Assembly (NCBI GenBank): GCA_018240465.1
Contig: JAFEFS010000068.1
Location: 1 to 64,000 of the forward strand
Length of the DNA: 64,000 bases
Direction of reading: 5' to 3'
Source: Pseudomonadota bacterium
GTDB lineage: Bacteria; Pseudomonadota; Gammaproteobacteria; Xanthomonadales; Rhodanobacteraceae
A program made the position numbers and the translations under genes. Numbering within the stretch: position 1 is the first letter of the stretch; every line of letters starts with the position of its first letter. Positions 12,918 to 53,135 of this stretch are shown here, piece by piece. Below the pieces are notes generated by a model. The model was not told the origin of the DNA, searched no databases, and was given only the letters and a program-made list of their open reading frames with translations.

Positions 12918-13015
12918 GTCATTCCGGCGAAGGTAGGAATCCGTATTTTCATTTCGTGCTTTTTAGGTCAAGAGCAAGAACTGGATTCCTGCCTTCGCGG
13001 GAACGACGAGCGAAC
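12918..13015. repeat. Inverted pair of extragenic palindromes
   Basis: Two related units face each other in the gap between the O-GlcNAc-transferase-like gene and hutG: CGTCATTCCGGCGAAGGTAG at about 12917-12936, and GGATTCCTGCCTTCGCGGGA at about 12982-13001. The core CATTCC..GCGAAGG..GGAAT is the same family as the elements near 16026 and 50113. The left unit lies upstream of hutG and is translated into a spurious N-terminal extension if the wrong start is chosen. Confidence 0.75.
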
Positions 13016-15998: not shown

Positions 15999-16025
15999 GT
16001 CGGGATGATTGCCTTGCATTTGCCG

Positions 16026-16053
16026 CCATTCCCGCGACAGCGCGAATGACGAG
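16026..16053. repeat. Extragenic palindrome between the D-amino acid genes
   Basis: CCATTCCCGCGACAGCGCGA, continuing ATGACGAG, is a degenerate copy of the CGTCATTCCC..GGGAATGACG family seen at 50113-50144. It fills the gap between the deacylase stop (16060) and the flavoprotein start (15998), so the two genes are linked by a repeat-containing spacer. Confidence 0.6.
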
Positions 16054-47762: not shown

Positions 47763-49166
47763 TCACGCAATGCCCAAGCCCTCGACCTGCATGATCGCCG
47801 CCGGGTCGAAACCGGCGAGGCGGGCGAACTCCCGGCCACGTTCGGCGTAGTCGTTGAATTGATCGAAGCTCGGCGCACCCGGCGAAAGCAGGATCGCACC
47901 GTCTTCGGGCGTGAGAGAGAGGGCGCGCGCGAACGCGTCGGCCAATGCATGTGCCGAAGCAAGCTCGAATCCGCGATGCGCGAGGCGGGCCAGCGCCGCT
48001 GCGATCGCATCGCCGTTGGTGCCCATCGTGACCACCGCGTGCGGCGGGCGCCGCGCAACGAAGTCGGCGAATGGCTGCCAGTCGATGCCGCGATCGAAGC
48101 CACCGACCAGGATCGTCGTCGTGCGGCCATCGAGACTGCGCAGCGCCTCGATCGCTGCGTATGGCGTGGTCGAGATGCTGTCGTTGACGTAATCGATGCC
48201 GCCGCGAATGCCGAGGTGCTGCAGGCGATGCGGCAACGGCTTGAAGGTGGCGACATGGCGCGCCAGCGCTCTCGCATCCTCGCCCGCCGCCTCGATCGCC
48301 GCGAGCGCGGCGCAGACATTGAGCGCATTGTGTTCGCCTGACAACGGGATCTGGCGGCTTGCAAGCACCTCCTCGTTGCCGCGCCAGACCGCACAGTCGC
48401 GCAGATGCCAGCCGTCGAAATGGTTGAACGCATCGTTCAGATTCCACTGCCCCAGATCGACCAGCTTTTCCTGCCGCGCATTGACGACGACGCGTTGCGC
48501 TTTCGCCGCGATGCGCAACTTGTCCTTCGAATAGTTTTCGCTCGTGACATGCCAGTCGAGGTGCTCCTCGTAGAGATTGTTGATCAGCGCCACGGTCGGC
48601 GCTCCCTCGAAATCGCGCGCCTGAAAACTCGACAGCTCGATCACCCACCAATCCGGTTCATGTGCGGGCTCGAGCAGATCGAGCAATGGCAAACCGATAT
48701 TGCCCGCCAGTGCCGTCAGCCTGCCGCTCTTGCGCAGAAGATGCGCGATCAACGCAGCGACGGTGCTCTTGCCCTTGGTACCGGTGATGCAGATGGTCCT
48801 CGCTTTTGCGTGCTCGGCGAACCAGATCGCCGTACCCGAAGTGAAGCGCACGCCCATGTGTTCCGCGGAGAGATGCGGTTCGCGATACGGGCTGATGCCG
48901 GGCGACTTGACGACGATGTCGAAGGCCGCCAGCACGGCCTCGTCGACCGGCGTGGTGACGACGAGTACCCGCGTGCCGCGACCCCCGGCTTCCCTGGCGA
49001 ACAGGTCGGAAGATTGCGCGATCAACGCGGCCGCCTCGGCCTCGCTGCAAAACAGGGTGAAGCACTCGGCGGGAAATTTCTGCGTCAACACCGACAGCGC
49101 AGCCCTGCCCTCGCGGCCATAGCCCCAGACGGCGACGCGCCTGCCTTCGAACTCAGAGAGGCGCAT
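47763..49166 (-). CDS. murD2: UDP-MurNAc-L-alanine--L-glutamate ligase (MurD2)
   Basis: A Mur ligase of 467 residues. It has a Rossmann N-domain (RRVAVWGYGREGRAALSVL), the ATP loop ICITGTKGKSTVAALI, ELSSFQARD, NNLYEEHLDWH and the C-domain DDSKGTN equivalent YVNDSISTTPYAAIEALRSL. Relatives in Xanthomonas add L-glutamate rather than D-glutamate, and the adjacent MurL then epimerises it. The direct murL neighbour here is the main reason for this assignment over ordinary MurD. The ATG at 49166 overlaps the end of murL by 14 bases. Sequence alone does not prove L-Glu specificity. Confidence 0.85.
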   Translation of the reverse strand: MRLSEFEGRRVAVWGYGREGRAALSVLTQKFPAECFTLFCSEAEAAALIAQSSDLFAREAGGRGTRVLVVTTPVDEAVLAAFDIVVKSPGISPYREPHLSAEHMGVRFTSGTAIWFAEHAKARTICITGTKGKSTVAALIAHLLRKSGRLTALAGNIGLPLLDLLEPAHEPDWWVIELSSFQARDFEGAPTVALINNLYEEHLDWHVTSENYSKDKLRIAAKAQRVVVNARQEKLVDLGQWNLNDAFNHFDGWHLRDCAVWRGNEEVLASRQIPLSGEHNALNVCAALAAIEAAGEDARALARHVATFKPLPHRLQHLGIRGGIDYVNDSISTTPYAAIEALRSLDGRTTTILVGGFDRGIDWQPFADFVARRPPHAVVTMGTNGDAIAAALARLAHRGFELASAHALADAFARALSLTPEDGAILLSPGAPSFDQFNDYAERGREFARLAGFDPAAIMQVEGLGIA

Positions 49167-50538
49167 TCGGCAGCGAAGTGAAACGCGTAGGCAGGAAATG
49201 TTCGCCCGTCGGGGCAAGCAGTGGCTCGAGCGCGAGCGCGGCACGATCGAGCTGCGGCAGGATTTCGTTCAAGAAGCGGGCGACGAGTGCGTCCTCGCGC
49301 CATTCCGCGCGCTGGGTCAGCGCGTACATCGCCGCACGCGATTCGCCACCCTCGCCGACGCATTCGAACGGCTTGTGGTCGCGATATTCGAGCAGCGCGT
49401 CGAAGCCCGGCGCGAGCGCCGCATCGTCGAGCAGGTTGCGGCCGAAGATCCTGAGCAGGCGCGGCTTGGCGACAAAAGGCGCCAGCGCGAGGAAGACGAA
49501 ATGACACTTCGGGCACTGCCCGCACCAGCGATCGGACGGGTGCTCGCCGAGGATGCGGAAGTTGCGGTTGCAGCTCGAAAACACCGCATCGTACTGCGGG
49601 TGCTTCGCGAATTCGCGCGCCACGGCCAGTTCCGACCAGGGCCGCAGCAGCGAGAAATAGTCGAGGTCGGCTGCAACGTGCGCGTGGACCTGCGCGCGCA
49701 GCAGGCGCTCGAAGTCCAGCGATTTGCTCCACTGGTGGTTGATCTGGCGACCGAGGTATTCGAGCGTCGCGCTCGACGCGGAACGTTCGTTGGAAAACGC
49801 GATCGCGTCGTAGCCATACAGAATCGCGGCGCACACGAGGATCGCCGAGTTGATCGCGGTGACCGGCACGTGACCGTTCCACGCGCCCTGGCGGTTGTAC
49901 TCGAACAGCGCCGGCGCGATCTGGCGCTTGATGTTGAGCAGCGGCAGGCCGCTGCGCTCGGCGCAGGCCGCGATCAGCGCGGAATCGCCGATCCAGACCG
50001 CCGTCGCCGGCTCGTCGATGCTTTTGCACATTTCCACGCTGACCAGCGAGTCCTTGCCGCCGCCGATCGGCAACAGCGTGCGGCGCGGCAGATTCAATGC
50101 AGGCGCTTTTTTTTCGTCATTCCCACCTTCGCGGGAATGACGAACAAGAGTGGAGAAGCGTAAACGCTCCGTCAGATCGAGCTTGTTCTGATAAGCGAAC
50201 TCGGCCAGACCGTGGAAATACAGCTCGTGCAGAAACCCTGCCGTATCCGTGGCGAGCGCGCCTGTCTCGACGCGCAACTCGGGCGGAATGCCGGCCTTGT
50301 AATAGCTGACCCCGGCGACCAGATGCAGCAGGCGCAGCGCTTGTGCGAATGCGTCGGCGCGTTCGGCCGGCAGCGCCGGCGCGTCGGGAAACACCACGCG
50401 CTCGGTCAGCAACGGGCCGTCGTCGAAGGCATACGCGAGGCTCGCCGTGCCACTCGCCGCGTCGAAGTCGCAGGCGGTAAAACGGAACGCCTGCGTGTCG
50501 CGTGGATCGGCGAATTTTTTGTCGATCGTCGCGGTCAC
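49153..50538 (-). CDS. murL: UDP-MurNAc-L-Ala-L-Glu epimerase (MurL)
   Basis: An ATP-dependent enzyme that inverts the terminal L-Glu to D-Glu in the alternative peptidoglycan precursor pathway described in Xanthomonas. The 461 residues carry the ATP-pyrophosphatase loop LLPIGGGKDSLVS (159-164), AINSAILVCAAILYGYDAIAF, and a cysteine cluster NRNFRILGEHPSDRWCGQCPKC. The GTG start at 50538 overlaps the lysAC stop (GTGA). Residues 132-144 (VRHSREGGNDEKK) are the translation of a perfect palindromic repeat at 50113-50144, an in-frame insertion just before the ATP loop. The rest of the frame is intact, so the protein is probably still made. Confidence 0.86.
   Translation of the reverse strand: MTATIDKKFADPRDTQAFRFTACDFDAASGTASLAYAFDDGPLLTERVVFPDAPALPAERADAFAQALRLLHLVAGVSYYKAGIPPELRVETGALATDTAGFLHELYFHGLAEFAYQNKLDLTERLRFSTLVRHSREGGNDEKKAPALNLPRRTLLPIGGGKDSLVSVEMCKSIDEPATAVWIGDSALIAACAERSGLPLLNIKRQIAPALFEYNRQGAWNGHVPVTAINSAILVCAAILYGYDAIAFSNERSASSATLEYLGRQINHQWSKSLDFERLLRAQVHAHVAADLDYFSLLRPWSELAVAREFAKHPQYDAVFSSCNRNFRILGEHPSDRWCGQCPKCHFVFLALAPFVAKPRLLRIFGRNLLDDAALAPGFDALLEYRDHKPFECVGEGGESRAAMYALTQRAEWREDALVARFLNEILPQLDRAALALEPLLAPTGEHFLPTRFTSLPNAPL
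50113..50144. repeat. Palindromic repeat inside murL
   Basis: Perfect 12-base arms TTCGTCATTCCC and GGGAATGACGAA around the loop ACCTTCGC. This is the same family as the extragenic units near 12917, 12982 and 16026. Its translation on the minus strand, RHSREGGN, is the characteristic peptide of this repeat when inserted in genes. The arms lie fully within codons 132-142 of murL. Confidence 0.85.
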
Positions 50539-53135
50539 AGCACAGTCTCCGCAGCGCGTCCGCGCAGGTTGTAGTCGGACGACATGACCGCACCGTAGGC
50601 GCCGGCCTGGGCGATCAGGATTACGTCGCCTTCCTGCGTCCTGGCGAGACGGCGGTGATTGCCGAGCACGTCGCCGGATTCGCAGATCGGACCGACGACC
50701 TGCACGAGTTCGGTCGCGGGCTCGTCGATGCGCGAGAGATTGACGATCTCGTGGTACGCCTCGTACAGCGCGGGCCGGATCAGCGTGTGCATGCCCGCAT
50801 CGACGCCGAGGTAGCGGAACTCGCCCTTGCGCTTGAGCTGGTTCACGCGCGCGAGCAGCACGCCGGCGTCGGCGACGAGGAAGCGGCCCGGCTCGCTCCA
50901 CAGCTCGAACTGCGGATAGGCGGCCTTCACCTCGGCGAGCCCCGCGGCGACGGCCTCGAGATCGAGCGGCGCCTCGTCGGCGCGCGCGGGCACGCCGTAG
51001 CCGCCGCCGACGTTGAGCGAGGCGACCGTGCCGATCTTCTCGGCGATGCTTGCATGGTGGGCGAACACTTCCTTCCAGTGCTTCGCATCGAGAATGCCCG
51101 AGCCGAGATGCGCGTGCAGGCCGACGATGCGCGCGTTGTGCCGTTCCGCCAGGTGCAGGAACTCGTCGACTTCGCCCAGGGCAAGACCGAATTTCGATCC
51201 GGCGCCGCCGGTCTTGACCTTGTCGTGATGGCCGCGCGTGAAGTCGAGGTCGAGGCGCAGTTCGATGTCGCGCCCGGCGAACAGGTCGCCCCAGTGTTCG
51301 AGCGGATGCAAGTTGTCGACGGTGATGCGCGCACCGGCCGCGATGCCGGCCGCGTAGTCCGTGCGCGAGCAGAAATTCGGCGTGTAGAGGATATCGACGG
51401 CGGCGCCGAAGATTCCGCGCACATGCGCGATTTCGCCCGGCGAGACGCATTCCAGACCGAAGCCCTGCGCCGCGATCTCGCGCAGGATCGCAGGATGCGA
51501 ATTCGCCTTGATCGCGTAGAACCAGCGATCGACGGCCTGGATCGTGCCGCGCAGCGCCTGCGCCTGTGCGCGCACGCTGGCGAGATCGTAAACATAGTGT
51601 GGTGTTGCCTTTGCGGCCAGCGCGAGCAGGTCTTCGCGACGCGCACGCCACCACGGCGCACTCTGCAACTGCGGCTTTTTATACAGATCCACCCAGCTCG
51701 GGCCGAACACGGCGGCGTCCTCGACCCGCATCGCTTCGGCCTTGATCAACAGATCATGCAACTGCGGCACGAGATCGGTTGCAGCGCTCTCGTCGACGAC
51801 GAAAGTGAGGTTGAGATTGTTCGACGACTGCGAAATCAGGTGCACGCGCAGCGAGCCGAACTCGGCCAGCACCGTGGAGAACTTGTGCAGCATCGAGCGC
51901 ATGCCACGGCCGACCAGAGTGATCGCCGCGCACGGCGCGATCACCTTCACGCGGCAGATTCCGGCGAGATCGGTGCACAGCGCCGAGAGCACATCGGTAT
52001 TGACCAGGTTCTCGCTCGGATCGAGCGAGACGGTGACGTTGGTTTCCGCCGTGCCGACCAGATCGATCGACAGGCCGTGGCGCTTGAAGATCTCGAACAC
52101 GTCGGCGAGAAAGCCGACCTGCTGCCACATGCCGATCGACTCCATCGAGATCAGGGTGATGCCGGTGCGCTGCGAAATCGCCTTGACGCTGGGCAGCGCG
52201 TCGGCAACCGCCGCACAGATTTCCGTGCCGGCGAACTCGGGATAGTTGGTGTCCTTGATCGTCAGCGGCACGCCGGCCTCGCGCACCGGGTTGATGCAGC
52301 GCGGATGCAGCACCTTGGCGCCGGTCGTGGCAATTTCCTGCGCTTCCTCGTAGTCCAGACGCGAGAGCAGGCGCGCATTCGGCACGCTGCGCGGATTGGC
52401 GCTGAACATGCCGGCGACGTCGGTCCAGATCTCGACGATCTCGGCATCGAGCAATGCGCCGAAATAGCTCGCCGAGGTATCCGAGCCGCCACGACCGAGG
52501 ATGACCGTCTCGCCGGCCGCGTTGCGCGCCATGAAGCCCTGGGTGATGAACGTCTCGCCGAGCGACGGCAGCCTCGCGATCAGCGCCTCGTCGCGCGCGG
52601 TCGGCACCTGCGCGGAGAGATAGCGGCCCCACGCGCTCTGGTTCGGCAACGCCTCGCTGAGCAGATGCTGGCGCGAATCTAGCCAGTTCGTCGTCAGGCC
52701 ACTCGCGCTCAAATACTGCGCACCGAGCGTCGACGACATCATCTCGCCGAGCGCGAGCACCTCGGCCTGCCAGGTCAGCGCGCCTTGCGCGCGGCGCGGG
52801 TCGGCGAGCAGTTGGTCGAGTTTCGCCAGCCACGCGTCGATACCGCCCGCATCGGTCAGTTCCAGTTCGGCAAACATCGCGCGATGGCGCGCGACGATCT
52901 CGTCGGCCACGGCCCGGCACTTGCCGGCGTCGGCGTGGCCGTCGCAGATCGCTTTCAACTTGTCCGTCGTGCCCGACAGCGCCGAGACCACGATGAGTAC
53001 GTGTTTGCCCTGCGCCCGTTTTCCCTTGGCGATCGCCGCGATCTTGTCCCAGCGCGGCCGCGTGGAAACGCTGGTGCCGCCAAATTTGAGCACAACCCAA
53101 TTGGCGCCGGTCAGGGGCGCGGCATTCACACTCAC
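50535..53135 (-). CDS. lysAC: Bifunctional aspartate kinase/diaminopimelate decarboxylase
   Basis: A fusion of the first and last enzymes of the lysine/diaminopimelate route, 866 residues, as known from Xanthomonas. The N-terminal aspartokinase (about 1-460) has VVLKFGGTSVSTRPRWD, GRGGSDTSASYFGALLDAE and ACT-like regulatory segments (TLISMESIGMWQQVGFLADV). The C-terminal PLP decarboxylase (about 480-866) has FYAIKANSHPAILREIAAQG (the PLP lysine), LHAHLGSGI, SLNVGGGYG, ELWSEPGRFLVADAG and GPICESGDVLG. Start codon is GTG at 53135 (VSVNAAPLTGANW). It leads a coupled unit with murL and murD2, all feeding cell-wall precursor and lysine synthesis. Confidence 0.95.
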   Translation of the reverse strand: MSVNAAPLTGANWVVLKFGGTSVSTRPRWDKIAAIAKGKRAQGKHVLIVVSALSGTTDKLKAICDGHADAGKCRAVADEIVARHRAMFAELELTDAGGIDAWLAKLDQLLADPRRAQGALTWQAEVLALGEMMSSTLGAQYLSASGLTTNWLDSRQHLLSEALPNQSAWGRYLSAQVPTARDEALIARLPSLGETFITQGFMARNAAGETVILGRGGSDTSASYFGALLDAEIVEIWTDVAGMFSANPRSVPNARLLSRLDYEEAQEIATTGAKVLHPRCINPVREAGVPLTIKDTNYPEFAGTEICAAVADALPSVKAISQRTGITLISMESIGMWQQVGFLADVFEIFKRHGLSIDLVGTAETNVTVSLDPSENLVNTDVLSALCTDLAGICRVKVIAPCAAITLVGRGMRSMLHKFSTVLAEFGSLRVHLISQSSNNLNLTFVVDESAATDLVPQLHDLLIKAEAMRVEDAAVFGPSWVDLYKKPQLQSAPWWRARREDLLALAAKATPHYVYDLASVRAQAQALRGTIQAVDRWFYAIKANSHPAILREIAAQGFGLECVSPGEIAHVRGIFGAAVDILYTPNFCSRTDYAAGIAAGARITVDNLHPLEHWGDLFAGRDIELRLDLDFTRGHHDKVKTGGAGSKFGLALGEVDEFLHLAERHNARIVGLHAHLGSGILDAKHWKEVFAHHASIAEKIGTVASLNVGGGYGVPARADEAPLDLEAVAAGLAEVKAAYPQFELWSEPGRFLVADAGVLLARVNQLKRKGEFRYLGVDAGMHTLIRPALYEAYHEIVNLSRIDEPATELVQVVGPICESGDVLGNHRRLARTQEGDVILIAQAGAYGAVMSSDYNLRGRAAETVL

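Follow-up and report, generated by a model that had tools for sequence, protein, structure and literature searches.

The murL gene of a Rudaea draft genome very probably carries a CGTC-tagged REP that inserted in frame into an internal linker of the MurL enzyme and was retained because this linker tolerates open hydrophilic sequence. We analyzed a window of 64,000 nucleotides, i.e., the whole stretch of DNA under study, from a genome of 3.67 Mb in 100 contigs whose nearest named relative is R. cellulosilytica. The window contains the following features:

47763–49166, minus strand: murD-type ligase gene, downstream of murL (TIGR01087, E 7e-92)
49153–50538, minus strand: murL (NF041275, E 4e-228)
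50107–50150, minus strand: probable full element, i.e., the palindrome with the conserved outer border on both sides, including the sense-strand A8 tract
50113–50144, minus strand: perfect palindrome, core of the CGTC-tagged REP CGTCATTCCCGCGAAGGTGGGAATGACG, encoding RHSREGGNDE
50535–53135, minus strand: bifunctional aspartate kinase/diaminopimelate decarboxylase gene, upstream of murL (NF006515, E 0)
12918–13007, no strand: inverted (head-to-head) pair of the same CGTC-tagged REP
about 16025–16049, no strand: decayed copy of the same CGTC-tagged REP

MurL matched its profile NF041275 with 757 bits at a curated cut-off of 700. Its reading frame is open throughout with the palindrome in frame, and the invariant GGGKDS and CGQCPKC motifs are retained. 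The GTG start of murL overlaps the stop of the aspartate kinase/diaminopimelate decarboxylase gene; because this gene adjoins upstream and the murD-type gene downstream, murL is placed among peptidoglycan-precursor genes. Judged by gene order and context, the murD-type neighbour may be the L-Glu-specific MurD2. Orthologues of murL were found in 57 of 60 relatives. One relative has a split match with an internal TGA (G012:C185:9725-11102), which is either a frameshift near the C-terminus or an assembly error.

Positions 50113–50144 read TTCGTCATTCCC-ACCTTCGC-GGGAATGACGAA, i.e., 12 perfect pairs enclosing an 8-base loop. The earlier note had reported this perfect 12-base-arm palindrome in frame inside murL, and the sequence, the open frame and NF041275 confirmed it; residues 132–144 (VRHSREGGNDEKK) lie 15 residues before GGGKDS (159–164), as it had stated. 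Whereas the palindrome is real, the element extends further. The outer border consensus of the REP is TTTGCYC before GTCATT and both murL flanks match it, with scores in the top 0.035% and top 0.27% of window 15-mers; we therefore assign the element about 44 nt (50107–50150). Together with the A8 tract it accounts for almost all of the linker STLVRHSREGGNDEKK that precedes the PP-loop GGGKDS. This A8 tract lies on the sense strand at 50107–50115 (GAC GAA AAA AAA GCG), where it follows the hairpin immediately. As the gene is GC-rich, the tract stands out as a possible slippage site.

Comparable palindromes (12-base arms and a loop of at most 20) occur at 5 sites in the window compared with 0.35 expected in first-order Markov sequences, or as 8 matches if nested registers of one site are counted. 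An Rfam scan of the window gave no match. We rejected a terminator reading of the murL hairpin, as no T run follows it on the sense strand and the terminator scan lists none there.

A pattern search allowing up to 3 mismatches, with the census taken from the stretches around the matches, found about 46 related copies in the Rudaea genome and none with the reversed pattern as control; the murL palindrome has 1 mismatch to the genome-wide pattern. The earlier note had placed the same repeat family outside genes at 12918–13015 and 16026, and we recovered both sites as the inverted pair and the decayed copy listed above. The genome consensus CGTCATTCCCGCGAAGGCGGGAATCCA fits the CGTC-tagged REPs described by Di Nocera et al. 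2013 (PMC3733652), a class in which the tag beside the stem is CGTC or else TGTC or CCTC. As in that class, the murL repeat family has the CGTC tag and A-T pairs first in the stem; C precedes GTC in 85% of the other genome copies. Asymmetric genome copies (ATTCCCGC-GAAG-GCGGGAAT) fit a stem of 8–9 bp with two first A-T pairs and a loop of 4–5, and many copies end in a CCA/CCG tail at the untagged end, like the 4-nt loop and CCA-like tail of the published class. Published CGTC-tagged REPs also form head-to-head pairs, have no transposase alongside and occasionally occur in frame within ORFs, as here. They have been found mostly in Alphaproteobacteria, whereas the present host belongs to the Lysobacterales within the Gammaproteobacteria.

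Unlike the published units, the murL copy is symmetric, as in a subset of the genome copies that is tagged at both ends. Its stem has 12 outer pairs around a loop of 8 nt, or, folded as RNA, 14 pairs around a loop of 4 nt, and is flanked by the CGTC tag on both sides, with a second tag in place of a CCA-type tail. Because of this ending, we class the murL copy as derived from the CGTC-tagged REP family and not as a canonical unit. On the simplest reading, which we infer from the symmetric subset, it would be a head-to-head REP pair collapsed by deletion between the arms. The CGTC-tagged REP is dispersed in many copies that lie mostly between genes, one of them clearly intragenic: of the approximately 46 genome sites, the one in murL alone is bounded on either side by coding signal in a single open frame, according to a crude codon-usage score trained on 24 window ORFs that could miss copies at gene ends. 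The REP is also present in 35 of the 60 relatives.

We aligned MurL across related genera, as the earlier note had suggested, and found that the extra residues are absent from most orthologues. The distance from a conserved Phe to LPRRTLVPIGGGKDS was 11–12 in most orthologues, 16 in the two closest sisters and 19 here (on the scale of our script). Compared with the closest sisters the linker has hence gained a net +3 residues, and compared with its usual length about +7, and not the 12–15 residues proposed earlier. Among 108 distinct orthologues and 457 consensus columns, all internal insertions of at least 4 residues fall at reference residues 131–154, and no other part of the aligned segment has inserts of this size.

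CGTC REPs are found in the linkers of four MurL sequences, i.e., this one and those of a Rudaea MAG, a Dokdonella MAG and a Rhodanobacteraceae MAG. In the Rudaea MAG the linker is a full REP dimer, HSREGGNPVL...LDPGLRRGDG. Well-supported (starred) branches of a tree built without the linker force four independent origins for these four cases. All four use the hydrophilic frame (RHSREGG and variants) and not the hydrophobic VIPAKAG frame, as would be expected of a linker exposed to solvent.

A further 14 MurL sequences were labelled with another palindrome, CCTCTCCCC...GGGGAGAGG, translated as SPLRGEGRGEG, in a few cases on the strength of a short or decayed motif; this palindrome is dispersed in the relatives' genomes as well. 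On our reading of the tree, the CCTCTCCCC inserts would reflect at least three separate gains (the main Rhodanobacter/Frateuria/Dyella group, L116 and L071). Parsimony counted 9–12 changes, which we did not accept as separate gains: since several Rhodanobacter/Frateuria inserts share flanking sequence, they may stem from a single gain with later losses, and the count may include such losses. While all four CGTC-REP cases are in MAGs, several CCTCTCCCC cases are isolate genomes, and the recurrence pattern is therefore not a MAG artefact. A second dispersed palindrome beside the CGTC REP, CCCTCTCCCC...GGGGAGAGGGTCGGGGTGAGGGG, occurs in the linkers of L054/L157, L101, L093, L095, L071 and L116; it has 107 copies in one genome (G047) and is abundant in some Lysobacterales, and we found no name for it. 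Other Rudaea MurL linkers (L034, L083, L062, L087) are 26–43 residues long without an obvious palindrome; they are perhaps decayed repeats.

An AlphaFold2 model of MurL built from 49 sequences had a mean pLDDT of 91.2. Apart from the N-terminus, pLDDT fell below 50 only at residues 135–140 (SREGGN), the repeat-encoded core. The linker is hence predicted to be unstructured and to join the N-terminal part to the PP-loop ATPase domain. This low confidence and the independent insertions at the same place support the earlier suggestion that the extra loop is tolerated. The model resembles QueC-type PP-loop enzymes (Foldseek 2pg3, E 2.9e-5), in agreement with the published ATP-to-AMP reaction of MurL (PMC8788868); its top matches further include QatC and Cap9 complexes. 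A sequence search of the PDB found no MurL relative. MurL has an invariant CGQCPKC-type motif and a predicted QueC-like PP-loop ATPase domain, whereas a 2021 review describes it as being without known conserved domains.

We propose that mobile palindromes would insert randomly and that purifying selection would remove insertions wherever MurL breaks, so that those in the disordered linker survive when the frame is open. The element would have arrived as, or become, a collapsed head-to-head REP dimer that displaced the old linker, in a process that is probably neutral. Its retention would be due to an unstructured linker that accepts nearly any sequence as long as this is open and hydrophilic. 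The cause is thus likely a permissive linker combined with selection, and not a function of the hairpin.

Each repeat family in MurL (the four CGTC cases L031, L084, L140 and L151, and the CCTCTCCCC cases) occurs in one frame and orientation, although other frames are open; this same-frame use could point to selection for more than tolerance. The linker might then be a trap in which the hydrophilic peptide or the mRNA hairpin is advantageous through linker tuning or paused co-translational folding. We regard this as unlikely; if true, it would be a convergent domestication of two unrelated repeat families.

Quite unlikely, too, is selection of the hairpin as an mRNA element that either pauses translation at the boundary between the domains or stabilizes the operon mRNA between lysA and murD2. 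The hairpin is strong (−32.6 kcal/mol over 81 nt, z −4.7) and hairpin-forming repeats recur at this domain boundary, but the linker mRNA of 84 orthologues without an insert was not unusually structured (z −0.13 compared with −0.39 elsewhere). An apparent excess in insert-free linkers had vanished after correction for base composition, and we dropped the idea of a conserved hairpin requirement. Moreover, the long linkers of L034, L083 and L062 lack a clear hairpin, and the insertion lies within codons and not between genes. An mRNA role of the hairpin hence found no support.

Recurrence at one site might also reflect a hot spot in the DNA, where a target motif of the mobilizing enzyme in this part of murL, and not protein tolerance, attracts repeats. 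Two unrelated repeat families within about 20 codons would fit this, but the insertion points have different sequences and lie at varying distances from the conserved Phe, the two families have no common tag, and the insertions coincide with the single disordered internal linker; we consider a hot spot very unlikely. As for the mobilizing enzyme, this genome has a single RAYT (G000:C74:38977-39417, L161/L185; NF047646, 200 bits), flanked by a 38-nt inverted repeat, AGCAAGTAGGGCGCAATAAGCG..., that is apparently GTAG-type and distinct from the CGTC REP. Across the genus, 11 loci gave RAYT matches, and none of them had a CGTC REP on it or close by. On both grounds, we rejected RAYT as the mobilizer of the CGTC REP.

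An enzyme gene that carries an insertion might be dispensable and at the start of its loss, and the earlier note had raised another route that would make MurL unnecessary. Dispensability or decay of MurL is extremely unlikely, and a search for MurI gave no support for another route. The frame is intact, NF041275 scores above its cut-off, GGGKDS and CGQCPKC are kept and murL adjoins an intact murD-type gene. Glutamate racemase MurI (TIGR00067) had no match in this genome, and in none of 16 genus genomes did a match exceed the cut-off; as a control, the same profile found MurI in 10 of 14 well-known genomes. A review likewise states the absence of MurI for MurD2/MurL bacteria. Because MurI was not found in genome or genus, MurL is very likely needed. 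It appears to be an enzyme without a substitute, and is presumably functional and essential; the REP hence very likely sits in a needed gene at its most permissive place.

Hardly credible, finally, is a misassembly of the hairpin into murL from another copy: the genome is a draft of 100 contigs and the repeat adjoins an A8 tract, but the site is internal in a 119-kb contig, the frame continues intact on either side, an outcome with a chance of just 1/3 under a random error, and repeats lie at the same linker in independent assemblies.

GTAG and CGTC REPs within ORFs are known from several species, and flexible linkers were proposed as neutral REP sites by the same authors (PMC3733652). The Rickettsia RPEs (Ogata et al. 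2000, as reviewed in PMC2229807), some of which are CGTC REPs (PMC3733652), are likewise in-frame palindromes in conserved protein genes. According to that review, their products are probably still active, a point that Abergel et al. 2006 (cited in PMC2229807) tested for gmk. RPEs are described there as 105–146 bp long, compared with about 44 nt for the murL element. A further parallel to MurL is recB of X. campestris and X. oryzae, with different REPs at about the same site (PMC3733652). The recB case comprises two species and one gene, whereas the MurL linker took up repeats of two kinds on at least seven occasions. The MurL case was absent from the literature searched, including the main text of PMC3733652, with the supplementary gene list and most subscription papers outside its scope; within this literature we also found no description of unrelated repeats landing recurrently in one enzyme linker. 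In-frame REP capture is known, and MurL is a new and well-replicated example of it.

Repeat capture accounts for the stray RHSREGGN and SPLRGEGRGEG motifs in MurL sequences, and the linker is a practical site for tagging the enzyme, testable by a linker swap. The captures are a natural record of non-coding DNA becoming protein without evident harm, replicated independently at one site.
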